Part shown: piece by piece, positions 38,354-53,649 of the stretch
Layout of the letters: each line of letters opens with the position of its first letter
How positions within the stretch are numbered: the stretch's first letter is position 1
Source of the DNA: Eubacteriales bacterium
GTDB taxonomy: Bacteria; Bacillota; Clostridia; Lachnospirales; Lachnospiraceae
DNA: 64,000 nucleotides
Direction: 5' to 3'
Assembly (NCBI GenBank): GCA_030526265.1
Contig: JAUNDE010000002.1
Location: 1 to 64,000 of the forward strand
Program-made: the position numbers and the translations under genes
The notes under the pieces: generated by a model
Told to the model about the DNA's origin: nothing
Databases searched by the model: none
The model's input: only the letters and a program-made list of their open reading frames with translations

Positions 38354-40441
38354 TTATTCAGCTACATCCTTGATACTAAATGAAAGTCGTCCCATTTTAT
38401 CTTTTCCAAGGCATACAACCTTTACAACATCACCAAGCGTCAGTACATCTTCCACCTGTTTTACTCTCTCTTTTGAGATTTTTGAAATATGAACCATTCC
38501 CTCTTTTCCTGGTGCAAATTCCAAAAATGCGCCAAATTCTTTGATGCTGATGACTTTTCCTTCAAGCACCTGTCCGGCTTCAAAATCTGTAACAATAATC
38601 TGAATCAGCTGTCTTGCACGCTCCATGCCTGCAGCATCTGTTCCACAGATTGATACAGCTCCATCATCAGTAATATCGATCTTCACACCAGTCTCATCTA
38701 TGATCGCATTGATAGTCTTTCCTCTCTGACCGACAACGTCACCAATCTTCTGAGGATCAATCTGCATCTGAATGATCTTCGGTGCAAATTCACCGACTTC
38801 TTTTCTTGGCTCGGCGATTGCCTTTGACATACATTCATCCATAATGAAAAGACGTGCCTGTCTTGTACGTGCGATTGCCTCTTCAACAATCTGTCTGGTA
38901 AGACCATGGATCTTGATATCCATCTGAATCGCTGTAATACCTTTTTCTGTACCGGTTACCTTAAAGTCCATATCTCCGAAGAAATCTTCAAGACCCTGAA
39001 TATCTGTAAGCACAAGATAATCATCATCTGTCTCACCTGTTACAAGACCACACGAAATACCGGCAACCATTGCCTTGATCGGAACACCCGCAGCCATAAG
39101 TGACATACAGGATGCACAGGTAGATGCCATGGATGTAGATCCATTTGATTCGAATGTCTCAGAAACTGTACGGATCGCATAAGGGAAATCAGCTTCACTT
39201 GGAAGAACCGGCACAAGCGCACGCTCTGCAAGTGCACCATGTCCTATCTCGCGACGTCCAGGACCTCTGGATGGTCTTGTTTCACCAACCGAATATGAAG
39301 GGAAGTTATAATGATGCATATACCTCTTTGCTGTTTCTGCTTCATCCAGGCCATCAAGCTTCTGTGCCTCCGAAAGCGGAGCCAGAGTTGTGATATTACA
39401 GATCTGTGTCTGCCCACGAGTAAACATGGCAGAACCATGAACTCTAGGAATAAGATCTACCTCTGCAGCAAGTGGACGAATCTGATCAATCGCTCTTCCA
39501 TCCGGACGCTTATGATCCTTTAAGATCATTTTACGAACCGTCTTCTTCTGATACTGGTATACAGCCTCTCCGAGAACAGACAGCCATTCCTCATTATCTG
39601 CAAAACTCTCAGCAAGTCTCTCTGTAATTTTGCGGATATTCTCTTCACGAACCTGCTTCTCATCTGTAAAGACAGCTTCTTCCATCTCAGCAGGCGGCAC
39701 AATCTCCTTGATAGCTTCAAACAATTCTTCAGGAACTGCGAAGCTCTGATATTCATGCTTTGGCTTTCCACATTCCGCAACAATGGTATCTACAAAAGCA
39801 ATTACCTTCTGGTTCAGCTCGTGCGCTGCATAAATAGCCTCGATCATCTGTGATTCCGGAACTTCATTTGCCCCAGCTTCGATCATGATTACTTTTTCTC
39901 TTGTAGATGCAACAGTAAGCGCGAGATCTGATACTGCCTTCTGAGAAGCAGTCGGGTTAAATACAAACTCACCGTCAACTAATCCAACCTGTGTTGTTGA
40001 GATAGGTCCGTCAAACGGAATGTCTGAGATTGTTGTTGCGATTGCAGCGCCAAGCATAGCTGTAAGCTCCGGTGAACAATCCTGATCCACGGAAAGAACA
40101 AGGTTCTCCAGTGTAACATCATTGCGATAATCCTTCGGGAACAGTGGTCTCATCGGACGGTCAATGACACGGTCTGTAAGAACGGCATTCTCTGATGCCT
40201 TACCTTCTCTCTTATTAAATCCACCCGGGATCTTACCTACAGCATACATTCTCTCATTATATTCAACACTTAACGGGAAGAAATCAATGCCTTCTCTTGG
40301 TTTATCAGATGCAGTTGCTGTACAGAGAACAGTTGTGTCTCCATAATGCATAAGAACAGCACCATTTGCCTGTTTTGCAACTCTGCCAACATCAACACGA
40401 AGAGGTCTGCCGGCTAATTCCATTTCAAATTGTTTATACAT
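38354..40441 (-). CDS. pnp: Polyribonucleotide nucleotidyltransferase (PNPase)
   Basis: 3'-to-5' phosphorolytic exoribonuclease of the RNA degradosome, 695 aa. Two RNase PH-like domains are seen (first, HYGDTTVLCTATAS; second, RGQTQICNITTLAPL and ESNGSTSMASTCASCMSLMAAGVPIK), then a KH domain (about 555-615, DVVGQRGKTINAIIDETGVKIDI) and an S1 domain (about 620-692, FGAFLEFAPGKEGMVHISKIS). Rather than next to rpsO as in Bacillus, it lies 13 kb away. The leader carries a long hairpin (40491-40567), which may serve autoregulation. Confidence 0.97.
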   Translation of the reverse strand: MYKQFEMELAGRPLRVDVGRVAKQANGAVLMHYGDTTVLCTATASDKPREGIDFFPLSVEYNERMYAVGKIPGGFNKREGKASENAVLTDRVIDRPMRPLFPKDYRNDVTLENLVLSVDQDCSPELTAMLGAAIATTISDIPFDGPISTTQVGLVDGEFVFNPTASQKAVSDLALTVASTREKVIMIEAGANEVPESQMIEAIYAAHELNQKVIAFVDTIVAECGKPKHEYQSFAVPEELFEAIKEIVPPAEMEEAVFTDEKQVREENIRKITERLAESFADNEEWLSVLGEAVYQYQKKTVRKMILKDHKRPDGRAIDQIRPLAAEVDLIPRVHGSAMFTRGQTQICNITTLAPLSEAQKLDGLDEAETAKRYMHHYNFPSYSVGETRPSRGPGRREIGHGALAERALVPVLPSEADFPYAIRTVSETFESNGSTSMASTCASCMSLMAAGVPIKAMVAGISCGLVTGETDDDYLVLTDIQGLEDFFGDMDFKVTGTEKGITAIQMDIKIHGLTRQIVEEAIARTRQARLFIMDECMSKAIAEPRKEVGEFAPKIIQMQIDPQKIGDVVGQRGKTINAIIDETGVKIDITDDGAVSICGTDAAGMERARQLIQIIVTDFEAGQVLEGKVISIKEFGAFLEFAPGKEGMVHISKISKERVKQVEDVLTLGDVVKVVCLGKDKMGRLSFSIKDVAE

Positions 40442-40490
40442 GGTAGTTATCCTTTCTTAAATCTGTAATTCTATTGAATATTTTTGGGAA

Positions 40491-40567
40491 ACAGAAACTA
40501 CCGAAACTACTGAAAAAAACATTTCATCAAATGCGCTTTTCAGTGGTCTCGGAAATCAAGTTTCTGT
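40491..40567 (-). promoter_or_regulatory. Long hairpin in the pnp leader
   Basis: Leader RNA folds into a nested hairpin: an outer 8-bp stem (40491-40498 with 40560-40567), a 16-bp stem with one mismatch (40501-40516 with 40537-40552), and an inner CATTT/AAATG stem (40520-40533). In E. coli, RNase III cuts a comparable pnp leader hairpin and PNPase then represses itself; the same use here is an inference. Confidence 0.6.
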
Positions 40568-40581
40568 TCACAGTTCTAATC

Positions 40582-40590
40582 ATTATAACA
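40582..40590 (-). promoter_or_regulatory. Extended -10 promoter of pnp
   Basis: Minus strand TGTTATAAT, an extended -10 (40582-40590, with -10 TATAAT at 40582-40587). No good -35. It would start the transcript a few bases before the leader hairpin. Confidence 0.5.
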
Positions 40591-40723
40591 TAAGTATTTC
40601 CAAAGTGCTACTAAAAATAAAAAAAGATTGCGCTTCATGCTCAATTTTCGCGTACACGCGGTCGCAATTGCAGAATTTCCCTTTTCAACTGTCAAAGACA
40701 GGATTATACATGATCACCGCATT

Positions 40724-40764: not shown

Positions 40765-41931
40765 TTACTCAGATGCTCTTTCCTTTTTAAAGATAATCGA
40801 ACCGTCTTTTATAACCATTTTCAAATTCAAATCTCTATCAAGCAGCACAACATTCCCCTTTTTTCCAGGCGTAATGGAGCCATATTTATCATACTCTCCC
40901 AGTGCCTTTGCCGGATTCATCGTTGCACATGCCACTGCCGTCTCAAGCGGTAGCCCCATCTGCTTTACAGCCGTTCTCATACAATCCATCAAATTGGTCA
41001 CCGAACCGGCCAGAGCGCCTCCTTCCGCCAGAGTTGCATGATTCCCAACAACATTCACTTTCAACCCGCCCAGAGTATAACTCCCGTCAGGCATCCCGGT
41101 GGCACGCATACTGTCGCTGATCAGAATCATACGGTCTTCACCCATCATCTTGTAAGTTGCCCGAACGACAGAAGGATGAATATGAACACCATCGCAAATC
41201 AGTTCTGCATTTACATTCAGGCAGTCAGATACTGCACCTATCACTCCCGGCGCGCGATGGGTAAATGCAGGCATCGCATTATAAAGATGAACCGCATGAA
41301 CTGCTCCTGCATCAAAAGCAGCCTTCGCAATATCGTAATCAGCATTTGTATGTGCAAGTGATATGTGAACCTTATCCTTCATCTGATTTATAAATTCCAA
41401 GGCATTCTCATTCTTCTCAGGTGCGATTCCAACAAACTTTACCAGCCCTTTCGAAGCATCCAGAAACTGCTGACAGATTTCGGCATCACAGGAGATAATA
41501 TTTTTCGCATCCTGTGCACCCTTTTTCTCAATACTGATAAATGGACCCTCCATGTTAACACCGATCAAATCCGCTGCAAGAGACTGCTCTTTCTCAGCTG
41601 TTTCCTTATAAGAAGCCGCAACCTCCAGAATGTGTGTCAATTCCTCTACCGGAAGGGTCATTGTTGCAGGACAAATAGCTGTTACACCAACAGAAGCCTC
41701 ATATTTTGCGATCTCTTCGATGGCTTTTCTGGTCCCATCACAGAAATCATAACCTTTGCATCCGTGGAAATGAAGATCGATCAGTCCAGGAATCGCATAA
41801 CATCCTTCTCCATCTATAGACTCTTCTCCGTCTCTTTTTGTTCCGTCTGCAAAAACTCCCTCCCTGATCATAATCTCACCATCTTCAAACGTCTTCTGTT
41901 CCGTATATACTTTTACATTTTCGATAATCAT
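40765..41931 (-). CDS. nagA: N-acetylglucosamine-6-phosphate deacetylase
   Basis: Removes the acetyl group from GlcNAc-6-P to give GlcN-6-P, in the amino-sugar pathway. It has 388 aa: GLIDLHFHGCKGYDFCDG (metal-binding HxH), MEGPFIS, ISLAHTNADYDIAK, AVHLYNAMPAFTHRAPG, the catalytic Asp in MILISDSMRATGMPDG, and the C-terminal NPAKALGEYDKYGSITPGKKGN. It follows a damaged RpiR gene; intact nagB is on the plus strand 2.2 kb away. Confidence 0.96.
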   Translation of the reverse strand: MIIENVKVYTEQKTFEDGEIMIREGVFADGTKRDGEESIDGEGCYAIPGLIDLHFHGCKGYDFCDGTRKAIEEIAKYEASVGVTAICPATMTLPVEELTHILEVAASYKETAEKEQSLAADLIGVNMEGPFISIEKKGAQDAKNIISCDAEICQQFLDASKGLVKFVGIAPEKNENALEFINQMKDKVHISLAHTNADYDIAKAAFDAGAVHAVHLYNAMPAFTHRAPGVIGAVSDCLNVNAELICDGVHIHPSVVRATYKMMGEDRMILISDSMRATGMPDGSYTLGGLKVNVVGNHATLAEGGALAGSVTNLMDCMRTAVKQMGLPLETAVACATMNPAKALGEYDKYGSITPGKKGNVVLLDRDLNLKMVIKDGSIIFKKERASE

Positions 41932-41963
41932 AGAATCCCTCCTTTTCGAATCATCATTCTGAA

Positions 41964-42650
41964 CTATAAGCTCTGCCCCATTTCCAATGCACGCAATGTA
42001 TTGTCATGAAGTATTTCTCTGGCAAATTTATCCTGTTCAACATAACTGGAATAGATTATATCAATCATGACCAGAATCGGGAACTGCGGAGAAATGACAT
42101 TTCCGTGATTCAGGTGCTTGAGCGATGGAAACAGCACCACTTCATCACAAAATCTGTCAAAAATCCCTCTATTCTTTGCTGTGAGGAGCACAGTCTTTGC
42201 TCCTCTTTTGTTCGCCTCTTTCAATAGATACAGTACCGCTTCCGTTTCACCACTGACACTGATTCCAAATACCAGACTCCTCTTATCCTGGAATACAGCC
42301 TGCATTCTCATAAGATCCGAGTCCTGAATAGAATCAATATCCACACCGATTCTCATGAACCTGTGTTCCATCTCTTCTGCCGCAAACCCAGAACTTCCTC
42401 TTCCACATACGAAGACTCGCTCCGCCTTGTTCAGATATCGGCTGATTCTGGCAATTTGCGATTCATCCATCAAGCTGTAGGTCTTATTCAGCAACTCCTG
42501 ATATGCATTCAAAATCATTCTCGTGTTACCGGTCATAGATTCCTCTTTTTCTACGAAGGTCTCCTCGTACTGATAAACAAATTCCCGGTATCCTCTGTAC
42601 CCACATTTCTTTGCAAACCGGGACAATGACGCTTCAGAAACATAGAGTCG
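41964..42650 (-). pseudogene. RpiR family regulator missing its N-terminus
   Basis: SIS-domain regulator fragment. The protein is recognisable from LYVSEASLSRFAKKCGYRGYREF, the recognition helix of the HTH, through a SIS domain with VFVCGRGSSGFAAEEM and LVFGISVSGETEAVL, to its normal end. The first 45 or so residues of the HTH domain are absent. The open frame continues upstream only into out-of-frame ROK kinase sequence (MERYFVDSV...), showing that a deletion joined the two genes at about 42641-42656. It probably controlled the neighbouring amino-sugar genes and is now likely inactive. Confidence 0.75.
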
Positions 42651-43171
42651 CTCCCAGTGTCTGAAAATCACTTCCCAGCATATGCATATATCCCACCTCA
42701 CAGGCACTGCCACTGAATCCACGAAATACCTTTCCATCCAGAATCAGACTCCCGCCGATACCGGTTCCGATGGCAGCATCAGCGCTGCCCTGCTGCCCAT
42801 CGCCGCTCCCGATATGTATTCTGCAAGCCCGGCACAGTTCACATCATTTTCCACCTCACATGGAACGTGAAATTTATTTTCCAGCGTCTTCTTGAAATTG
42901 ATACCTTTATAGTTCGGAATCAGGGATGCTGAATGAAATATTTCACCCTTTGTGGTATCGACCATCCCGGCTGTTGATATACAGATTCCGCTGATTTCCT
43001 CTGTCTCACAAAAACTGTTCGTAATTTTCACTACTTTTTTCAAAATAGACGGACCGCCCTTGTAACTTTCCGTTTTTCTCTCACCACGGCTTATGATTTC
43101 ACCTTTCTCAGAAAGTAATCCATACTTTATCGCCGTGCCCCCAATATCTATACTAACATATTTTTTATCAT
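42642..43171 (-). pseudogene. ROK family kinase, frameshifted and 3'-truncated
   Basis: Remnant of a ROK sugar kinase, likely N-acetylmannosamine or glucose type. Recognisable pieces: YVSIDIGGTAIKYGLL (N-terminal phosphate loop), GICISTAGMVDTTKG, ENDVNCAGLAEYISGAAMG, then in another frame IGTGIGGSLILDGKVFRG and SACEVGYMHMLGSDFQTLGA. Three lesions: the ATG at 43171, after AGGAGG, is out of frame by one base in an A-run (six A at 43161-43166 where seven restores MIKKYVSIDIGG); one base is missing near 42772; and the last third is gone at the join with the RpiR gene. The conserved zinc-cysteine region is lost. Confidence 0.8.
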
Positions 43172-43294
43172 TAACTGTTCTGCCTCCTCTACTATAGTGA
43201 GGAACCATTCTGCCTGCTCTGGATCATCAAACTTCTTCCGTGCAGAAACCTTTCCTTCATTATAGTATAATCCGATATTTTCCGCAATCTCCAC
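43148..43294 (-). pseudogene. C-terminal remnant of an unidentified gene
   Basis: A 48-codon open frame (VEIAENIGLYYNEGK at the start, EEAEQLM near the end) stops inside the ROK start and has no proper start codon region. It reads like the natural end of a larger protein coupled to the ROK gene, cut off upstream near 43300. Family not recognised. Confidence 0.35.
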
Positions 43295-43321
43295 CCCGAG
43301 AAGTTACGATTTCACACCTCA

Positions 43322-43357
43322 AAGAGGCAAAGCGGAACCTCCTCCGTTTTGCCTCTT
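43322..43357 (-). terminator. Terminator-like hairpin between remnants
   Basis: 15-bp stem with one G.T pair (43322-43336 with 43343-43357) shortly after the YhcH fragment stop. It has no clear T-run. Confidence 0.45.
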
Positions 43358-43363
43358 ACCACG

Positions 43364-43730
43364 TTAAGAGATACGCACTTTAAAAATAGCTTTTTTAATC
43401 TTCTGAGATTCTCCCACTGCAACTGCCGTTCGGTGTCCGTCACTTGGATAGCATATTAAGAAATCACCATTCCTTAAAATTACAGAACTGTTCTTTTCTC
43501 CGTTCATTGGAAGAAAATCATCCTTCTGTACAAATTCCTTAAGCTTCATGTTATGAATAAAGTTTAAATCAATCTGTTCTGTTCCATGCAGCATCAAATG
43601 AACATCAAGATAATTCTTATGTGCCTCCCAGAAACGTTCCTCTGCTCCGATAACACGTCCACTGATAAACTGCTCGTCCGGTCCATTGAAAATCACATAA
43701 TTATCCCCCGCCTCAGCCTTGAACATCTCG
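43364..43730 (-). pseudogene. YhcH/YjgK/YiaL-type protein fragment
   Basis: About 120 residues of the YhcH (DUF386) family, a cupin-like protein found in sialic-acid clusters: WEAHKNYLDVHLMLHGTEQI, then DFLICYPSDGHRTAVAVGESQKIKKAIFKVRI to the natural end. Roughly the first 35-40 residues are missing. The frame joins the NanE fragment upstream at about 43727-43732, within the sequence reading KAEAGDNYV. Confidence 0.7.
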
Positions 43731-43958
43731 CTTTCTCCGGTGTGTTGATATTGCCCTCTGCAATCACTTTGTTCTTTACACCGGCAATGATTTTCCTCAA
43801 AATTTCAAAATCGTTTTCCTCGATTTTGTCCCCCCTGCTCTGCTCCGTATAGCCGACCATGGTTGTTCCTATAAAATCGAAACCCAACTCATCTGCATGA
43901 ACGGCTTCTTCCACAGTAGAGCAATCTGCCATCAAAAGCTGATCTGGATCTTTGTTCT
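43727..43958 (-). pseudogene. NanE (ManNAc-6-P epimerase) internal fragment
   Basis: A piece of N-acetylmannosamine-6-phosphate 2-epimerase: DPDQLLMADCSTVEEAVHADELGFDFIGTTMVGYT, then KNKVIAEGNINTPEKA. The N-terminal third and the C-terminal part with the last active-site strands are missing. At its 3' end it runs into YhcH sequence. At its 5' end it abuts a short stretch (43955-44050) that in one frame reads VSIAIGDANTIEKAANEYT, vaguely like the end of a HAD phosphatase. Confidence 0.75.
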
Positions 43959-44001
43959 TTCTTTCCATCTTTGAAAGTATATTCATTTGCGGCTTTTTCT
44001 A

Positions 44002-44029
44002 TTGTATTTGCATCTCCGATTGCTATACT
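44002..44029 (+). promoter_or_regulatory. Possible promoter of nagB
   Basis: TTGTAT (44002-44007), 16 nt, TATACT (44024-44029), about 70 bases before the nagB start and within decayed sequence. Confidence 0.4.
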
Positions 44030-44097
44030 TACAAATGTAAAAGCAAATTGTTCTATACCATGAACAAATATCAAAAGAAAGGACAGGATATATAAGT

Positions 44098-44823
44098 ATG
44101 ATAATATGTAAGGCACAGAATTATACAGACATGAGCAGAAAGGCTGCGAACATTATTTCTGCACAGGTGATCATGAAGCCAGACTGTGTACTTGGACTGG
44201 CAACCGGTTCCTCACCACTGGGAACCTATAAACAGTTGATTGACTGGTATCAGAAAGGAGATTTGAATTTTTCAAAAGTATCCAGTGTTAACCTGGATGA
44301 ATACCGGGGACTGAGTCCGGAACACGAACAGAGCTACCGCTATTTTATGAATGAGAATTTTTTTGATCATATTAATATTGATAAAGCCCGTACCTTTGTT
44401 CCTGACGGACTGGCATTAGATGTAGATAAATTCTGTAAAGATTATGACAAGCTGATTGAAGAGATTGGAGGTATAGATTTACAGCTCCTGGGTTTGGGAC
44501 GAAACGGGCACATAGGATTCAATGAGCCTTCCGATATTTTTGCAAGGGATACACATTGTGTAGATCTCGCTCCAAGCACTATTGATGCTAACAAGCGTTT
44601 CTTTAACAGCGAAGAAGATGTACCACGTCAGGCATTGACCATGGGAATCAGAAATATTATGATGGCGAAAAAGATTGTAGTTGTTGTAAGTGGAAAAGAT
44701 AAGGCTAAGGCTCTGAAAGAAACCATTTACGGACCGATTACACCTAAAATTCCGGGTTCTGTATTACAACTTCACCCAGACGTAATAATCATTGCAGACG
44801 AAGCAGCATTGTCAGAGATTTAG
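44098..44823 (+). CDS. nagB: Glucosamine-6-phosphate deaminase
   Basis: Converts GlcN-6-P to fructose-6-P and ammonia, the last step of amino-sugar catabolism. 241 aa, complete: GLATGSSPLGTYKQLIDWY, the catalytic Asp in SSVNLDEYRGLSPEHEQSYRYFM, GLGRNGHIGFNEPSD (catalytic His), and TMGIRNIMMAKKIVVVVSGKDKAKAL. Start after a GAAAGGACAGG site. On the plus strand, opposite to nagA and to the remnants beside it, and followed by its own terminator. Confidence 0.96.
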   Translation: MIICKAQNYTDMSRKAANIISAQVIMKPDCVLGLATGSSPLGTYKQLIDWYQKGDLNFSKVSSVNLDEYRGLSPEHEQSYRYFMNENFFDHINIDKARTFVPDGLALDVDKFCKDYDKLIEEIGGIDLQLLGLGRNGHIGFNEPSDIFARDTHCVDLAPSTIDANKRFFNSEEDVPRQALTMGIRNIMMAKKIVVVVSGKDKAKALKETIYGPITPKIPGSVLQLHPDVIIIADEAALSEI

Positions 44824-44971: not shown

Positions 44972-45053
44972 AAACAAAAAAGCACCCAATAAAAATATTG
45001 AATGCTTTTCATCTGCTCTGATATTCAAACCAAGATTATTTACGAAGTCCAAG
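44972..45053 (-). repeat. Displaced copy of the rpsO 3' end and terminator
   Basis: 82 bases match 53319-53400 with five mismatches. The copy contains the end of an S15 gene in frame (F-E-R-L-G-L-R-K then stop at 45036-45038, against I-E-K-L-G-L-R-K in intact rpsO) and the terminator hairpin. No other part of rpsO is present upstream. Same orientation as intact rpsO, so the two form a direct repeat 8.3 kb apart. Confidence 0.9.
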
Positions 45054-45153
45054 TCTTTCAAATCTTCACACAATCCATGTTTTCGATCCGAATCACTGCA
45101 CATCTATACAGAACATATTACAACTGTAAAATCAAGGAACTTGTCACTACTAA

Positions 45154-46527
45154 TTATAAATCTTTACCAGCGATATATCTTGCAACACAGACACCACTTG
45201 CCGAAGCGTGAGACAAGGAATGTGTTACCCCACTGCAGTCACCGATGACAAAAAGTCCCTTATGTCTTGTTTCCAGATGTTCGTCGATCTCCACTTCCAT
45301 ATTGTAGAATTTCACTTCTACACCATAAAGAAGTGTGTCATCGTTCGCTGTACCCGGAGCAATCTTATCTAATGCATAGATCATTTCTATGATACCATCC
45401 AGAATACGTTTCGGCATTACGAGGCTCAAATCTCCCGGTGTAGCCGCAAGAGTAGGAACAACATAACTTTGTGCGATTCTGCTCACTGTACTTCTCTTTC
45501 CACGGATCAGATCACCGAAACGCTGTACGATCACACCTCCGCCAAGCATATTGGAAAGTCTTGCGATACTCTCGCCGTATCCATTACTGTCTTTGAAAGG
45601 CTCGGAAAAATGTTTGGATACAAGAAGTGCAAAATTCGTATTCTCCGTGTGCATCTTCGGATCCTCATAGCTGTGTCCATTTACTGTCACAATTCCGTTT
45701 GTATTTTCATTTACCACAACTCCACGCGGATTCATGCAGAAGGTTCGAACAAGATCCTCAAACTTTTTCGTTCGATATACAATCTTGCTCTCATAAAGTT
45801 CGTCTGTTAAATGAGAAAACACTTCTGCCGGAAGCTCTACTCGAACCCCAATATCTACACGGTTAGATTTGGTTTTGATTTCAAGATCCCTGCATACACT
45901 TTCCATCCATTTACTTCCGCTGCGTCCTGCAGATATTATGCATTTTTTGCATCTATAAGATCCATCTGCAGTAATCACCTCGTAATCATCTTCGCATTTT
46001 AACACTGTTTCTACCGGAGTCATAAAGTGGAATTCCACATGATCCTTAAGCTCTGCATACAGATTCTCCAGAACCACATAATTGATATCTGTTCCAAGAT
46101 GACGCACCGATGCATCCAGCAAATGCAGGTCATTCTGCAGACACATTTTTTTAATTGCTGTATTTGCTGTAGAGTAAAGTCTTGTACCTTCTCCTCCATG
46201 AGAAACATTGATCTCATCCACATAATTCATCAGATCAATCGCATCTTTCTTACCGATATACTCATGCAGCGTACCGCCAAACTGGTTTGTGATATTATAC
46301 TTTCCATCTGAAAACGCTCCTGCACCGCCAAAGCCATTCATAATTCCACAACTTTTACAATGTATACAGGATTTTATTTTTTTACCGTCAATCGGACATT
46401 TACGTTTCTCAAGACTGTTTCCAGCTTCAAACACTGCTACTTTAAGCTGAGGCTTAATCTTTATAAGTTCATATGCTGAGAAGATACCTCCCGGTCCCGC
46501 CCCAACAATAATCACATCATAATTCAT
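45154..46527 (-). CDS. NAD(P)/FAD-dependent oxidoreductase (COG2509-like)
   Basis: FAD-binding dehydrogenase of 457 aa. It begins with YDVIIVGAGPGGIFSAYELI (dinucleotide fold), followed by a Cys-rich segment (KRKCPIDGKKIKSCIHCKSCGIMNGFGGAGAFSDGKYN) that may bind a metal or cluster, and ends with FVIGDCSGVTHSLSHASASGVCVARYI. The family is common in anaerobes and poorly characterised; a substrate cannot be named. It follows a terminator, so it is transcribed apart from the PTS operon. Confidence 0.85.
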   Translation of the reverse strand: MNYDVIIVGAGPGGIFSAYELIKIKPQLKVAVFEAGNSLEKRKCPIDGKKIKSCIHCKSCGIMNGFGGAGAFSDGKYNITNQFGGTLHEYIGKKDAIDLMNYVDEINVSHGGEGTRLYSTANTAIKKMCLQNDLHLLDASVRHLGTDINYVVLENLYAELKDHVEFHFMTPVETVLKCEDDYEVITADGSYRCKKCIISAGRSGSKWMESVCRDLEIKTKSNRVDIGVRVELPAEVFSHLTDELYESKIVYRTKKFEDLVRTFCMNPRGVVVNENTNGIVTVNGHSYEDPKMHTENTNFALLVSKHFSEPFKDSNGYGESIARLSNMLGGGVIVQRFGDLIRGKRSTVSRIAQSYVVPTLAATPGDLSLVMPKRILDGIIEMIYALDKIAPGTANDDTLLYGVEVKFYNMEVEIDEHLETRHKGLFVIGDCSGVTHSLSHASASGVCVARYIAGKDL

Positions 46528-46578
46528 AGTCAGTTCTCCTTTTTCTTTTATTATACCATTATTTAGCTCACGCCAAAC

Positions 46579-46612
46579 AGGACAGCAACCCTAAAATCAG
46601 GATTGCTGTCCT
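46579..46612 (-). terminator. Terminator of the PTS operon
   Basis: 14-bp stem with one mismatch (46579-46592 with 46599-46612), 6 bases past the stop of the RarA C-terminal gene. Confidence 0.75.
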
Positions 46613-46617
46613 TAGTT

Positions 46618-47223
46618 TTAGTACTGTCCTGTGTTGTACACAAAAGCATTCGGTACATTCTTATCCGGGCTATAAGTCTCAAGAATCTTTCCATAGCGCT
46701 CTCTGTAGTCATTGTCTACTTTGAGCTGAGGAATAACTTTTGTTCCTTCCTCAAAGAAATGCTTAGAACCTCTTCCCATCTCCTGACCTCTCTTGGTGTG
46801 CTTATCAAGAGCCACATCCATGATCTCCGGCAGTTTACCCATAGCGGCCTCTTTAATGATGATATTCTTTAAAAAATCACTGGAACGATCTTTTTCGCTC
46901 TCGCAGAGAATACGGATCGCATGAATGAAATACATCGGCTGATCCCCGTCATCATAAGGGAAATTCTTTCTCATTTCATTCATTGTGTTTACCTGAACTG
47001 CTGCATTCAGATTTCCAAATCCGATATCTTCTACAGAAATTGTGAGAAGTCTTCTCCACATTTTTTCCAGGAAAACCGGACCAGATACATACAGTTCATA
47101 TGCATACTGGCAAGCTTCCTCTACCATTGCACGACGGATTGCTTTCTGAAGGCAGGAAACGATCTCATCTGTAGCAAATCCATTCAGTGTTGTCGATGCT
47201 GCCCAAATATTATATGCTGGCAT
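46618..47223 (-). CDS. Orphan RarA/MgsA C-terminal domain protein
   Basis: A 201-aa protein equivalent to the C-terminal, tetramerising half of the AAA+ clamp-loader-like ATPase RarA/MgsA: FATDEIVSCLQKAIRRAMVEEACQYAYEL, RRLLTISVEDIGFGN, and a tail with HTKRGQEMGRGSKHFFEEG. There is no P-loop or ATPase domain. Start 2 nt after the IIA gene, so the gene is a regular member of the PTS operon and not a broken rarA. A role in sugar metabolism is unknown; it may be a scaffold or regulator. Confidence 0.8.
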   Translation of the reverse strand: MPAYNIWAASTTLNGFATDEIVSCLQKAIRRAMVEEACQYAYELYVSGPVFLEKMWRRLLTISVEDIGFGNLNAAVQVNTMNEMRKNFPYDDGDQPMYFIHAIRILCESEKDRSSDFLKNIIIKEAAMGKLPEIMDVALDKHTKRGQEMGRGSKHFFEEGTKVIPQLKVDNDYRERYGKILETYSPDKNVPNAFVYNTGQY

Positions 47224-47224
47224 T

Positions 47225-47548
47225 TCAATTCTCCTTTTTTTCTTTGTATAATTCTATTAATTCCATAATCACGATTTTGATTGTCTCCGCACTCATAAGC
47301 TGATCTTCTGCATGTGTCATCAGAAGGCTGATCTGAGGTTCAAGAGACGCCATCTCCTCCTGCAACACATCCATGTGTCCATCGTGAGCTTCCACAAAAC
47401 TCTTATTACCTTCTTCAATCTTCTTCTCAGCTTCTACAAAATCGCCTTGTTTTGCCAGTGAGAGAGCTTCCAGGTAACATGACTTGGCCATTCCTGAGTA
47501 TGTGATCACCTTCATAGCACTCTCTGAAATTTTTTCAATATTTACCAT
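47225..47548 (-). CDS. PTS lactose/cellobiose-family EIIA
   Basis: Phosphocarrier of the Lac-family PTS, 107 aa, all helical: YSGMAKSCYLEALSLAKQGDFVEAEKKIEEG, then the phospho-His in LMTHAEDQLM. It receives phosphate from HPr and passes it to EIIB. Encoded between EIIB and the RarA-like gene. Confidence 0.95.
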   Translation of the reverse strand: MVNIEKISESAMKVITYSGMAKSCYLEALSLAKQGDFVEAEKKIEEGNKSFVEAHDGHMDVLQEEMASLEPQISLLMTHAEDQLMSAETIKIVIMELIELYKEKKEN

Positions 47549-47556
47549 TCTCTCTC

Positions 47557-47853
47557 CTATCCTTTAACCAGACTGATTGCAAAATCCAGTGCTTTATCAC
47601 CATCAGCCATAGCATATACGCGTGGCTCTACACTTGCCACCGGAATATTCAGCTGTGATTTGATATTTGCTACAGCGTATACAAGCTGTGGTCCTACCAG
47701 ACAAACATCCCACTTGCCAACTTCATCCTTGATTCCCGCATTTGCCACTGCAGTGATGGTAATATCCATTCCACGTTTTTCTGCTGCCTCGCGAATCTTC
47801 TTTACGAGAATTGAACTGGACATACCGGCGTTACAGCATAATAAAATTTTCAA
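47557..47853 (-). CDS. PTS lactose/cellobiose-family EIIB
   Basis: 98-aa phosphocarrier with the active-site loop ILLCCNAGMSSS; Cys7 is the expected phosphorylated residue. It passes phosphate from EIIA to the sugar carried by EIIC. Directly upstream of the EIIA gene. Confidence 0.95.
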   Translation of the reverse strand: MKILLCCNAGMSSSILVKKIREAAEKRGMDITITAVANAGIKDEVGKWDVCLVGPQLVYAVANIKSQLNIPVASVEPRVYAMADGDKALDFAISLVKG

Positions 47854-47919
47854 AATGATTCTCCTTCCTGCACTTACATAGCATCTGTATTCAATTTCTT
47901 CTATTTATAGTTTCTTTAC

Positions 47920-49275
<1,356 letters not shown>

Positions 49276-49911
49276 TTATACCTCTAAATCTTTTATCCAG
49301 TTTGTCCGTTTCAATAGTTGCACAAAAAAAGTAATAATCTTACCCGTTACGATGACGGCGATGATTGTTGCTGGTGTTACTCTTCCTCCCAAGAGAATTC
49401 CTGTGATCAAAAACAACAAATCCAGTCCCCAGCGCACTTTAAAGTACTCTAACTTTGTTTTGCTCATTACACTGAAAATCAGTGCATCATAAGAGCTTTT
49501 TCCGTAATTTGCATAAATTGACATCGCAAGTCCAAATGCAATGACACATAATCCGAATAACATAAGCCCGTAATTTCCCGGAAACCAGAGACATTCCGGC
49601 ACGACTGCCATCCCAAAGTCAAACCCATAGGAAAACACAAGAATCGCAATCACTGTTCCAATACCCAGTTCTGTTCGCTTCAACACAAAGGCTATTGCAA
49701 TCATGACCGCAGACACGATCAGGCTCGCAGTTCCCTCCGATACATTCAGCGTAAGCGCAGTTCCCTGAAACAGAACGTTCAAAGGATCGGCGCCAAGTCC
49801 TGACCGGATACAGATGCCATTTCCCAGACCCGAGATAATATTTCCCAGGCATACGAATGAAATACGGAGCATTACGTCTTTCTTACTCATATATGTTTGT
49901 GTTTCTTTCAT
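49276..49911 (-). CDS. YczE/YitT-like membrane protein
   Basis: Integral membrane protein of 211 aa with five to six helices; NGICIRSGLGADPLNVLFQG and ANYGKSSYDALIFS are typical of the YczE/YyaS family. Start after AGAAGGAAG. It lies inside the PTS operon between the regulator and the glycosidase. Function unknown in general; a transport-accessory role is conceivable. Confidence 0.8.
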   Translation of the reverse strand: MKETQTYMSKKDVMLRISFVCLGNIISGLGNGICIRSGLGADPLNVLFQGTALTLNVSEGTASLIVSAVMIAIAFVLKRTELGIGTVIAILVFSYGFDFGMAVVPECLWFPGNYGLMLFGLCVIAFGLAMSIYANYGKSSYDALIFSVMSKTKLEYFKVRWGLDLLFLITGILLGGRVTPATIIAVIVTGKIITFFVQLLKRTNWIKDLEV

Positions 49912-49929
49912 AAAGCTTCCTTCTGCATG

Positions 49930-51861
49930 TTAGTAGGCTTCTGTAGAATTGGAGATTTGAATGAGTACTTCAACAAATTCCTCCTCGGTCTCAACTGCAG
50001 CCAGTTTCCTTATAGACAACCGATCCATTGCCATCTGCTTGAAGAACTGGAACAGAACACCAATCTGGTCATTCTGTTTTCGCTCCATTGCCAGCAGAAA
50101 AATGACCTGAATCTCTTTTTCCTGCATACGCATAGGTTTCTTCAAAACCGCAGCAGCGATTGCCTTTTTCTTAGCAAAAGTCACAAGGGGATGCGGAATC
50201 ATAAAGGAATTTCCCAGAAAAGTCGGATAGTTTACCTCTCGTTGAAGGACATCGTTCACATATTCAGCTACATCGTAAATACAGCCTTCTTTGTCCAACG
50301 CCTCAGTCATTTCCTGTATGATTTCTTCAAACTCCACTTGATGCCTAAATATACGAATTGTTTTTGGGTTAAAATGGTCTTTGATAATTTCACGAAATCG
50401 ATAATCAAGTCGTATCTTATGTACCAACGCATTCATTGCCTGCTGCGTATAATGATCGGGTATGCCATTGATCCTGAATGTATGTATCTGCGAATGAACG
50501 ACCATATCCATAGTAGAAATGATCAGATCCACTTTATGATCTTCCAGATACTGATCCAGATTGTGCTGAGGCAATACCTTAACAACTTCAATCTGATTCT
50601 GATAATTCATCTGAATCCAGTTATTAATGATCGTACTTACACTGAATCTCGCTGAACTGATGATCACCGCCTTCAGCTTCTGGTTGATATTATCAAGGAA
50701 ATGCTCTACAAATATAGAAATGTAAGACACTTCATCATCCTGAATAAAACAACTCTTATATCGATATATGATTGGCACGATCAGCATAGAGACCTCATAC
50801 GCATAAGGGTATTGTTTCTTTACATCATTCAGAATTGGGTTCTTCACCGCGTATCCAGTCTCCATGCGTCTTAACATGTATTCAATATGAATGAGCAGAT
50901 TATTGTAATATTCCTTAGACTGCCACAGGTCAAAATGATATTTTTCCATTACTTCTCTGCAGAATTCTTCCAGGATCGAAATGCTCACACTGTCCACAAT
51001 ACTCTCGTCTACCGGATTTGCCGAGAGCTTAAAGTTATGCAGAAGCGAACCAAGCACTTGAAAATCCTCATTACAAAGCAACAGTTCCTGTTCCTTCAGG
51101 TAATCAAAAAACTGCTGGATCTCAAGACTTACAGACTCCGGTTCTGCAAGAGAAATCATTCTGTGATTCTGATAATTACGGATGATCGTAATATATAATG
51201 CACTTACAATCATATATAAGTTTGCATCAGATATCTGAATCTTGGAATTATCAAAGTATTCCTTTACCAGTTTGATCAGAAACTCATACTCGTTCTGGTC
51301 AAAAGAATTGCAGAGCAAGGTTTTCAAAAAGAAGAAATGCGTCCTTGTTCCTCTTTCTGTCTCGCTTTTGATCAACCGAAAAATTGTCTTACGCAATTTT
51401 TTCTCATCCGCCGAGATTCTAAGCCAGTCTCCGTTTACCTGTAGTATTTCACTCTGATACTCAGTCATCAGATATTTCTGAAATTTGACAATTTCTTTAT
51501 AGATTGCAGGCTGTGAAAGGTGTAATACATCTTCGAGATCAAAAAGATTTACCCTTCCGGACTCAAGTGTCATACCGAGAATAATCCATCCCCGATCCCC
51601 TGCATTGGAAGCATTTTCTTCTTTATGTTCCAAACTCAAATGTTCTCTTACCGCCTCGATCTGTTGTCCGTCGATATAATAGCCTTTCTTACGCGACGAA
51701 CAAATCACATCATCATTTCCCCATGATTGATTGATTTCTCCGATTTCGTTACGGATTGTTCGGGAAGACACTCCCATGTACTCAGCCAGCTTGGCTCCGG
51801 TAACACCCTGCACATTATTCAATAATATTTCCAGTATTTTGGATTGTCTTCCTGTAAACAT
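49930..51861 (-). CDS. PRD-domain transcription regulator (LicR/MtlR type)
   Basis: PTS-controlled activator of 643 aa. Domains in order: N-terminal HTH (about 1-60; GVTGAKLAEYMGVSSRTIRNEI), a second HTH (about 85-170), two PTS regulation domains (about 185-290 and 295-400), an EIIB-like domain (about 405-490) and a C-terminal EIIA-like domain (about 500-640) with the phospho-His region in GNSFMIPHPLV. Phosphorylation of the PRD histidines sets activity according to sugar supply. It sits right after the EIIC gene and probably controls the operon through the promoter at 53202-53230. Confidence 0.93.
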   Translation of the reverse strand: MFTGRQSKILEILLNNVQGVTGAKLAEYMGVSSRTIRNEIGEINQSWGNDDVICSSRKKGYYIDGQQIEAVREHLSLEHKEENASNAGDRGWIILGMTLESGRVNLFDLEDVLHLSQPAIYKEIVKFQKYLMTEYQSEILQVNGDWLRISADEKKLRKTIFRLIKSETERGTRTHFFFLKTLLCNSFDQNEYEFLIKLVKEYFDNSKIQISDANLYMIVSALYITIIRNYQNHRMISLAEPESVSLEIQQFFDYLKEQELLLCNEDFQVLGSLLHNFKLSANPVDESIVDSVSISILEEFCREVMEKYHFDLWQSKEYYNNLLIHIEYMLRRMETGYAVKNPILNDVKKQYPYAYEVSMLIVPIIYRYKSCFIQDDEVSYISIFVEHFLDNINQKLKAVIISSARFSVSTIINNWIQMNYQNQIEVVKVLPQHNLDQYLEDHKVDLIISTMDMVVHSQIHTFRINGIPDHYTQQAMNALVHKIRLDYRFREIIKDHFNPKTIRIFRHQVEFEEIIQEMTEALDKEGCIYDVAEYVNDVLQREVNYPTFLGNSFMIPHPLVTFAKKKAIAAAVLKKPMRMQEKEIQVIFLLAMERKQNDQIGVLFQFFKQMAMDRLSIRKLAAVETEEEFVEVLIQISNSTEAY

Positions 51862-51882
51862 CCTTATCTCCTATAATATAAA

Positions 51883-53145
51883 TTAAGCAGTTTCTTCCTG
51901 CTCTTTTTTAAGTTCATCTGCCTCCATTGCTTTAAAGAATGGATAGTAGATCAGTGTCATAATAAGCAGAAGTACAAAAACAAGTACTACACTCTTCCAG
52001 TCAAGTGTCATCAGGAACGCACCAACTCCAGGTGGGAGGAATCCAGGTGGATTCGCGATCGGCATTCCAACCAGGCCGCTTGTCATTGAGAAGTACGCAA
52101 TTACTGTAATGATCAATGGTCCGAATACGAATGGGATAAACATAAACGGATTTAAAATGATCGGCGCTCCAAAGATTATCGGCTCATTGACTCCAACTAA
52201 CGACGGAACAATCGATACCTTTCCGATAGCATTCAACGACTTCGCCTTTGAACGCATCATCAAAATCACAAGACCGAGCGTAAGTCCGGAACCTGTAACC
52301 TGAAGAATATTGTAATAGAATCCATATGTAAAAATATGTGTCACAGTCTCGCCTGCTGCATAAGCTGCAATATTCTCAGCACCATATGCGATTGCAAAGG
52401 AAGCCCATACTGCTGATGTGATCGAAGGTCCGTGAAGGCCGAAGAACCACAGAAGCTGTGTCAGGAATATTACGATCAGTAATGCAGGCAATGTATCCAT
52501 TGTGCTGATTGCAGGAGCAAGAACACTCATAACTGCTGCAGGGAATACCTGTCCGCCTACTGCAAGTGATACATTCGCAATAATAACTGCAACAACCACA
52601 TTCACTACCAATGGAATGAGTGATGCAAAACTCTCACCAACCATGGATGGAACACTGTCCGGAAGACGAATGATAACATTTTTCTTAATCAGCAATCTGG
52701 TGATCTCAACGCTCAGGATTGCTGAGACAATACTTGTAAACAATCCGGAAGCTCCCAGATATGTAATGTCCAATCCACCCTCAATAGAAAGTCCACTCAG
52801 AATCAAATGTACAAGGATTGCTGTTGCCCCTGTCTGTCCATTATAAATATCATAACGCTTCGCCAAAGCTACCGCAATAAACAATGCCGCATAAATTGAC
52901 AACATATCGTTGGAAAACATTCCGGCATAAGTAAATACGTTCATGTACTTACCAAGGAAATCATAAATCGGACCGCTTCCGATCAGATTCATGAATGCCA
53001 GCGGAAGCAAGCTGATAGATCCGATAATGATAACCGGAATAACCGCAATCATACCGTCCTTGATGGCCTGAAGATGCTTTTGCTGTTCCATTTTGTTTGC
53101 AATCGGCATCAAATACTTCATCAATGTTTCTTGAAATTTGTTCAT
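51883..53145 (-). CDS. PTS lactose/cellobiose-family EIIC permease
   Basis: Membrane channel subunit of the PTS, 420 aa with about ten helices. Characteristic parts: KYLMPIANKMEQQKHLQAIKDGMIAVIP, FFGLHGPSITSAVWASFAIAYG, SIVPSLVGVNEPIIFGAPIILNPFMFIPF (substrate-binding NEP motif) and FLPPGVGAFL. Start after AAGGAGAAG. First gene of the operon, but separated from EIIA and EIIB by the regulator, membrane protein and GH4 genes. Confidence 0.95.
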   Translation of the reverse strand: MNKFQETLMKYLMPIANKMEQQKHLQAIKDGMIAVIPVIIIGSISLLPLAFMNLIGSGPIYDFLGKYMNVFTYAGMFSNDMLSIYAALFIAVALAKRYDIYNGQTGATAILVHLILSGLSIEGGLDITYLGASGLFTSIVSAILSVEITRLLIKKNVIIRLPDSVPSMVGESFASLIPLVVNVVVAVIIANVSLAVGGQVFPAAVMSVLAPAISTMDTLPALLIVIFLTQLLWFFGLHGPSITSAVWASFAIAYGAENIAAYAAGETVTHIFTYGFYYNILQVTGSGLTLGLVILMMRSKAKSLNAIGKVSIVPSLVGVNEPIIFGAPIILNPFMFIPFVFGPLIITVIAYFSMTSGLVGMPIANPPGFLPPGVGAFLMTLDWKSVVLVFVLLLIMTLIYYPFFKAMEADELKKEQEETA

Positions 53146-53201
53146 AACTCTTCTCCTTAAGTATTTTCAAATCCCTGTCGACAATGGATTTCGTTAGTAT
53201 C

Positions 53202-53230
53202 AGTATATCTGTTCTAAAGGGAACTCACAA
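53202..53230 (-). promoter_or_regulatory. Promoter of the PTS operon
   Basis: Minus strand: -35 TTGTGA (53225-53230), 17 nt, -10 TATACT (53202-53207), 57 bases before the EIIC start. Confidence 0.6.
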
Positions 53231-53237
53231 ATACACT

Positions 53238-53308
53238 TTTTCCACTCACATAGGAATTCCCATTTTCCCTTTCCACAAAGACAAGGAGAAATTGCGTCAT
53301 TTTCCACA
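53238..53308 (-). promoter_or_regulatory. Possible activator sites upstream of the PTS promoter
   Basis: Three copies of a (T/A)GTGGAAA-like word on the minus strand (53300-53308, 53270-53278, 53238-53246), spaced 30-32 bases, about three helical turns, just upstream of the -35. Fits an activator array; the protein is likely the PRD regulator. Confidence 0.4.
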
Positions 53309-53318
53309 TATAAAGGAC

Positions 53319-53400
53319 AAACAAAAAAGCACCCAATAAAAATATTGAATGCTTTTCATCTGATTTGATATTCAAATTAAGATTATTTACGAAGACCAAG
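53319..53400 (-). repeat. rpsO 3' end and terminator (intact copy)
   Basis: Partner of the repeat at 44972-45053 (77 of 82 bases match). It comprises the last codons of rpsO, the stop and the terminator: stem 53325-53337 with 53344-53356, two mismatches, followed by TTTTTTG on the minus strand. Confidence 0.9.
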
Positions 53401-53649
53401 TTTCTCGATCAGTGCACGATATCTGTTGATATCTTTATCTTTCAGATATGCAAGGAGTCCTCTTCTCTGACCAACCATTTTAAGAAGACCTCTTCTTGAG
53501 TGGTGATCCTTTGGATTAGCCTTGAAGTGATCTGTAAGATCGTTGATTCTGGCTGTAAGAATCGCAATCTGTACTTCCGGAGATCCTGTGTCTCCTTCTC
53601 CTCTTCCGAATTCTGCAATAATCTGTGCTTTCTGCTCTTTTGATACCAT
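53383..53649 (-). CDS. rpsO: 30S ribosomal protein S15
   Basis: Primary 16S rRNA-binding protein of the small subunit, 88 aa from the ATG at 53649 after [63 protein letters not shown], ending EKLGLRK. Its 3' end is one half of an 8.3-kb direct repeat. The upstream leader could fold into a structure resembling the S15 site. Confidence 0.97.

Follow-up and report, generated by a model that had tools for sequence, protein, structure and literature searches.

The 3' end of rpsO, the gene for ribosomal protein S15, is present twice in a contig of a Lachnospiraceae bacterium, and an intact 8.3-kb sugar operon lies between the two copies. We conclude that genes were gained at rpsO and that this arrangement is the genuine scar, left by an event of a known kind whose address is unusual. 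The best explanation, which we put forward tentatively and with less than even confidence, is that the operon is what remains of an integrative element whose insertion site would have been the 3' end of rpsO and whose integrase would since have been lost. The window is the whole stretch of DNA that was analyzed (64,000 nucleotides of contig JAUNDE010000002.1); its relevant features are listed in Table 1.

Table 1. Features of the rpsO-pnp region, in window coordinates
Feature	Position	Strand	Basis
pnp, normal neighbor of rpsO	38354..40441	-	Comparison with relatives
pnp leader; outermost part perhaps a remnant of the old rpsO-pnp spacer	40442..40665	-	Alignment to G008; outermost part marginal (P = 0.054)
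nag/nan block: nagA, RpiR, ROK, YhcH and NanE pieces, nagB; several genes truncated	40765..44823		ORFs, profiles, comparison with relatives
Repeat copy 2, displaced rpsO tail (eight codons, stop, terminator), attR-like	44972..45059	-	Repeat search, terminator fold (z, -5.17), codon comparison
Joint between operon and tail, 94 nt	45060..45153		Repeat without significant extension here
FAD-dependent oxidoreductase (flavoprotein), last gene of the block	45154..46527	-	PF07992, PF21688; in L048 and L081, too, located behind the mgsA-like gene
MgsA-C-like protein, 201 aa	46618..47223	-	PF12002 below cutoff; belongs to the operons of relatives
PTS IIA	47225..47548	-	PF02255 (1e-30)
PTS IIB	47557..47853	-	PF02302 (2.4e-18)
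GH4-family glycosidase	47920..49260	-	PF02056 (1.8e-65), PF11975 (1.6e-53)
YczE-like membrane protein	49276..49911	-	NF052291 (6e-27, below its cutoff)
PRD/EIIA-type regulator	49930..51861	-	PF00874, PF00359, PF05043, PF08279
PTS lactose/cellobiose-family IIC	51883..53145	-	PF02378 (8.8e-46); TIGR00410 above cutoff
Operon upstream region, reaching the repeat edge	53146..53318	-	Promoter-proximal part conserved; outer 62 nt align to L052 and L076 upstreams
Repeat copy 1, end of intact rpsO (last codons, stop, terminator), attL-like	53319..53406	-	81/88 to copy 2; fold z, -4.45
Intact rpsO, ribosomal protein S15, 93 aa	53383..53664	-	ORF; Pfam Ribosomal_S15 (4.4e-40)

Two copies of the rpsO end

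The copies start 8,347 nt apart and are identical at 81 of their 88 positions (92%); each comprises the last eight codons, the stop codon, and the terminator of rpsO. An earlier note on this DNA had described a direct repeat of 82 bp with this spacing, with intact rpsO at one end and a tail encoding F-E-R-L-G-L-R-K at the other. The repeat search confirmed this arrangement and extended the repeat to its present length; the displaced tail retains the eight residues and the stop codon. The seven mismatches, at positions 3, 5, 12, 29, 30, 42, and 44 from the coding end, all fall within the first 44 nt; the final 44 nt, the terminator half, are identical, and the noncoding portions agree at 60 of 64 bases. 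A strong intrinsic terminator folds in both copies.

Past the 88 nt, no significant homology between the copies was found on either side, and on this ground a decayed full-length rpsO was rejected as the source of the repeat. When the genome itself was searched with the tail, the one other strong match was the rpsO end, with no strong third copy; searches for a third tail near pnp and for a repeat at the pnp end of the nag/nan block likewise found none. Since none of the other repeat families shown for the window exceeds 42 nt and most have copies that are about 75% alike, the rpsO-end repeat is far beyond chance. The operon thus lies between att-like direct repeats of a gene 3' end.

The rpsO-pnp neighborhood

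The normal neighbor of rpsO is pnp, which follows it in all 12 relatives compared (nine congeners and three others) and also in a tenth congener, G002. The gap between the two genes is 0.2 to 0.4 kb in 9 of the 10 congeners and 2.2 kb in G004. Across the family it is 600 bp or less in 78 of 88 same-contig pairs and larger in 10, reaching 23 kb; these pairs were tallied by hand from among the best matches listed for 250 genomes, with the exclusion of genomes whose pnp lies on another contig (G083, G100, G141, G149, G169, G197, and G240), of G260, which is rearranged, and of all genomes with an unlisted match. The two genes of the window are 12.9 kb apart, and between them lie the operon, then the rpsO tail, and then an eroded nag/nan block. 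The flanks are syntenic with those of congeners: rpe, xylB, and dha genes lie upstream of rpsO in G001 and G004, and a long stretch beyond pnp is shared with G008. The empty site had earlier been proposed as rpsO directly beside nagB or its neighbor; an empty site does exist in congeners, and the old neighbor of rpsO in it is pnp, not nagB.

Beyond the displaced tail, no resemblance to the congener rpsO-pnp spacer was detected; judging from the alignment of the pnp leader, a piece of the old spacer may survive beside pnp. Within this leader (window 40460-40600) there is an inverted repeat, CCGAGACCACTGAAAAG with a CTTTTCAGTAGTTTCGG-like partner, variants of which occur in 10 of the 12 relatives and which we take to be perhaps a hairpin of PNPase autoregulation.

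The nag/nan block, too, is extra DNA between rpsO and pnp, a point absent from the earlier note, and it would represent a separate gain. NanE (230 aa in G008) is cut down there to residues 121 to 198, the first third of YhcH and the C-terminal half of ROK are missing, and RpiR has apparently lost its N terminus (all in window 41964-43986); the block looks as if it had undergone several internal deletions. The nagB ortholog of G008 (88%) lies on another contig.

Extra DNA or unusual neighbors were also seen at other loci. In another genus of the family, 23 kb separate rpsO from pnp (L085 and L086, G127:C34), with helicase-like and SMC-like ORFs as judged by eye; neither a clear rpsO repeat nor a recombinase was found in this insertion. 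The IMG/VR contig L114 has phage-like lysis genes and an IS30-like transposase, also judged by eye, just upstream of its rpsO-pnp pair.

The operon and its edges

The content given in the earlier note (a PTS operon, its regulator, and a flavoprotein, with no integrase) was borne out by domain and profile scans. The operon is intact, in the order IIC, PRD regulator, YczE-like protein, GH4 glycosidase, IIB, IIA, MgsA-C-like protein, and flavoprotein. It resembles the GH4/PTS operon of other Firmicutes, for example that of an uncultured Lachnoclostridium (L048), in which all eight genes recur in unchanged order, with 71% DNA identity along 8.1 collinear kb; however, the L048 operon sits elsewhere in the chromosome, flanked by a phosphopentomutase-like gene and leuS (gene names taken from the ORFs), and has no rpsO tail. 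Large parts of the operon recur in many of the 35 named loci. Within the genus, the GH4 gene was found, at the threshold used, in 2 of 11 genomes, that of the window included; in the second, G001, it lies on a contig other than that of rpsO-pnp. The MgsA-C-like protein, for which there was no NCBIfam match, is 91 to 95% identical in the nearest operon relatives, a conservation equal to that of GH4; the regulator is 57 to 64% identical.

Between the rpsO terminator and the conserved part of the operon promoter lie 62 nt that align to the operon upstream regions of L052 (anchored score, 12) and L076 (anchored score, 10), scores attained in 0 of 200 shuffles each, and both alignments extend up to the intact rpsO terminator. 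The match to L054 was weaker (P = 0.01), and the upstream regions of L048 to L051, L053, and L055 gave no clear match (P = 0.055 to 1.0). Because the homology to operon upstream DNA reaches the intact terminator, the edge of the repeat marks the beginning of the foreign DNA; the joint at the left edge takes up 94 nt. Inserted DNA that begins at the repeat edge is combined here with a site that is empty in relatives.

An assembly chimera in which alleles of two strains were joined at their common terminator would be compatible with an assembly of 107 contigs that is 93% complete, with the 44 nt that are identical between the copies, and with the ORF spanning the tail junction, which has no relative in the protein database. 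However, the operon-to-tail joint does not lie at shared sequence, and a repeat of 88 nt with seven differences can be bridged by ordinary 150-base reads, if that read length is assumed; we consider a chimera very improbable.

A resemblance to the G008 rpsO-pnp spacer also exists in the first 25 nt past the intact terminator (anchored score, 9; shuffle P = 0.001), and none of 1,238 other T-run-anchored sequence windows reached this score. When the bases of the window served as the query, a higher score (11) was obtained for 1 of the 1,238, located in the upstream region of the L076 copy of this operon. The unanchored G008 test was weak (P = 0.077), and two more distant loci among 34, L036 and L140, gave equal or better scores. 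A native rpsO-pnp spacer is the poorer explanation of these 25 nt, since alignments anchored at the operon side continue as far as the terminator for the operon upstream regions of L052 and L076.

This result affects another way in which the operon could have arrived, namely, homologous recombination with a donor, from this species or one closely related to it, whose DNA carried both the rpsO end and the operon, either as a circle integrated by one crossover or as a linear piece with one end homologous and the other joined illegitimately. Such a transfer would account jointly for an imported 3' end, a species-like terminator, and a missing integrase. Recombination with one homologous and one illegitimate junction has been documented (PMC3240628), and it likewise adds foreign DNA without an element-borne enzyme; however, it is described there from laboratory crosses, and for the window no donor allele was found. 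The donor would need to have had the operon behind rpsO beforehand, and none of this kind was found; moreover, operon upstream DNA accounts better for the native-like spacer next to intact rpsO. The operon-upstream matches weaken the native-spacer reading and thereby lower the odds for homologous insertion, which we regard as improbable.

Which rpsO end is newer

The residue before L-G-L-R-K is R in all 10 congeners and in the tail and K in intact rpsO, a one-base change, and G008 agrees with the tail at two of the three coding differences. The R of the congeners is kept in the tail and replaced by K in the intact gene; the codon comparison weakly suggests that the tail is the older 3' end of rpsO and that the end of the intact gene is the newcomer.

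In the noncoding part of the repeat, only G008 is similar among nine congeners (P = 0.005, as opposed to at least 0.26 for the others). The terminator half is identical in the two copies but is not common to the congeners, which argues that the second copy came from this species or a very near one. The agreement of the noncoding portions, with only G008 similar, likewise makes it unlikely that an att copy was brought in by a distant element.

A local duplication would fit these observations: the operon would have been joined behind rpsO without att sites and the rpsO end copied, by staggered-break repair, template switching, or a tandem duplication trimmed by deletion, after which the copies diverged. 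Not only the identical, species-specific terminator half but also the several internal deletions in the adjacent nag/nan genes and the lack of a detected recombinase speak for it. However, it would mean that the conserved R and the G008-like GGA codon had disappeared from the functional gene and not from the relic, and on the whole we think a local duplication unlikely, although it deserves serious consideration. Both local duplication and homologous transfer explain the identical terminators more easily than a decayed element does.

Recombinases and known elements

Profile searches of the window and the rest of the contig found no tyrosine or serine recombinase; the nine tyrosine- and three serine-recombinase hits in the genome are all on other contigs. 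The profiles, built from eight of the nine tyrosine hits and all three serine hits (one perhaps in the wrong frame), with positive controls that were among the training sequences, gave no match to the fetched rpsO loci either. Among the eight proteins of the block, Pfam revealed no recombinase domain or relaxase and an NCBIfam scan no recombinase.

The earlier note had called for a search for other integrase-bearing elements at rpsO; none came to light in 16 rpsO loci or in phage or plasmid records. There was no clear second rpsO tail in the 16 other rpsO loci, and the best candidate, 33 nt at 85% identity in the 23-kb insertion of G127, was equaled by 2 of 60 random sequences. The tail had no match in phage or plasmid records, and one exact 29-position pattern of the tail was not found in viral contigs, of which one, L114, contains rpsO, with phage-like genes on the 5' side of the gene. 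Near the operon in the 35 named loci, the only recombinase trace was a weak tyrosine-type piece in L052, about 6 kb from the IIC gene. By title or start of abstract, none of the papers listed in the literature searches reported rpsO as an integration site. Given that neither the window nor the rest of its contig yielded a recombinase and that the 16 loci lack a clear second tail, the integrase is one that we infer. The earlier reading of the repeat as the footprint of an element is supported in part, by the empty site, the foreign operon that starts at the repeat edge, and the older-looking tail; it falls short in that the integrase was not found.

The arrangement is reminiscent of elements in streptococci, where tyrosine integrases, according to PMC5357655, commonly use the 3' ends of ribosomal-protein genes as targets, with long direct repeats. 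Integrase-less cis-mobilizable elements (CIMEs) of 1.2 to 13 kb, some with carbohydrate genes, are described as common there in PMC7563491, and such elements occur at rpsI, rplL, or rpmG (PMC7563491 and PMC5357655). Like these CIMEs, the block is integrase-less cargo between direct repeats of a ribosomal-protein gene 3' end; its cargo is for carbohydrates, and its size falls within their range. It carries no recombination or mobilization genes, as expected of a CIME, and not the integrase of its own that a complete ICE, IME, or prophage would have. Unlike the streptococcal elements, its target is rpsO, a word that occurs in neither paper, and no parent ICE or IME or integrase was found for it. 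The block has the anatomy of a CIME and works like one in this comparison; with no parent element or integrase found at rpsO, its membership is putative.

Proposed course of events and implications

If the operon is a decayed integrative element, a site-specific recombinase would have inserted the element at the 3' end of rpsO, with a crossover probably near the 5' edge of the repeat. The insertion would have supplied rpsO with a new last stretch and terminator and moved its old end and terminator to the far side of the element; the integrase would have been deleted later. It is predicted that rpsO kept a working end and terminator, that the displaced terminator closes the flavoprotein operon, and that rpsO and pnp no longer share a transcript. 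A bolder proposal, which we think probably does not hold, is that the rpsO 3' end and terminator are the attachment site of an unrecognized integrase family of Lachnospiraceae and that the operon is cis-mobilizable cargo that could still be moved in trans.

In conclusion, the locus shows that a whole catabolic operon can enter the conserved neighborhood of a ribosomal-protein gene, leaving the gene intact and a short, readable scar behind. If the integrase reading is true, the integration addresses rpsI, rplL, rpmE, and rpmG would be joined by rpsO, this time in Lachnospiraceae, and the parent elements could be sought.
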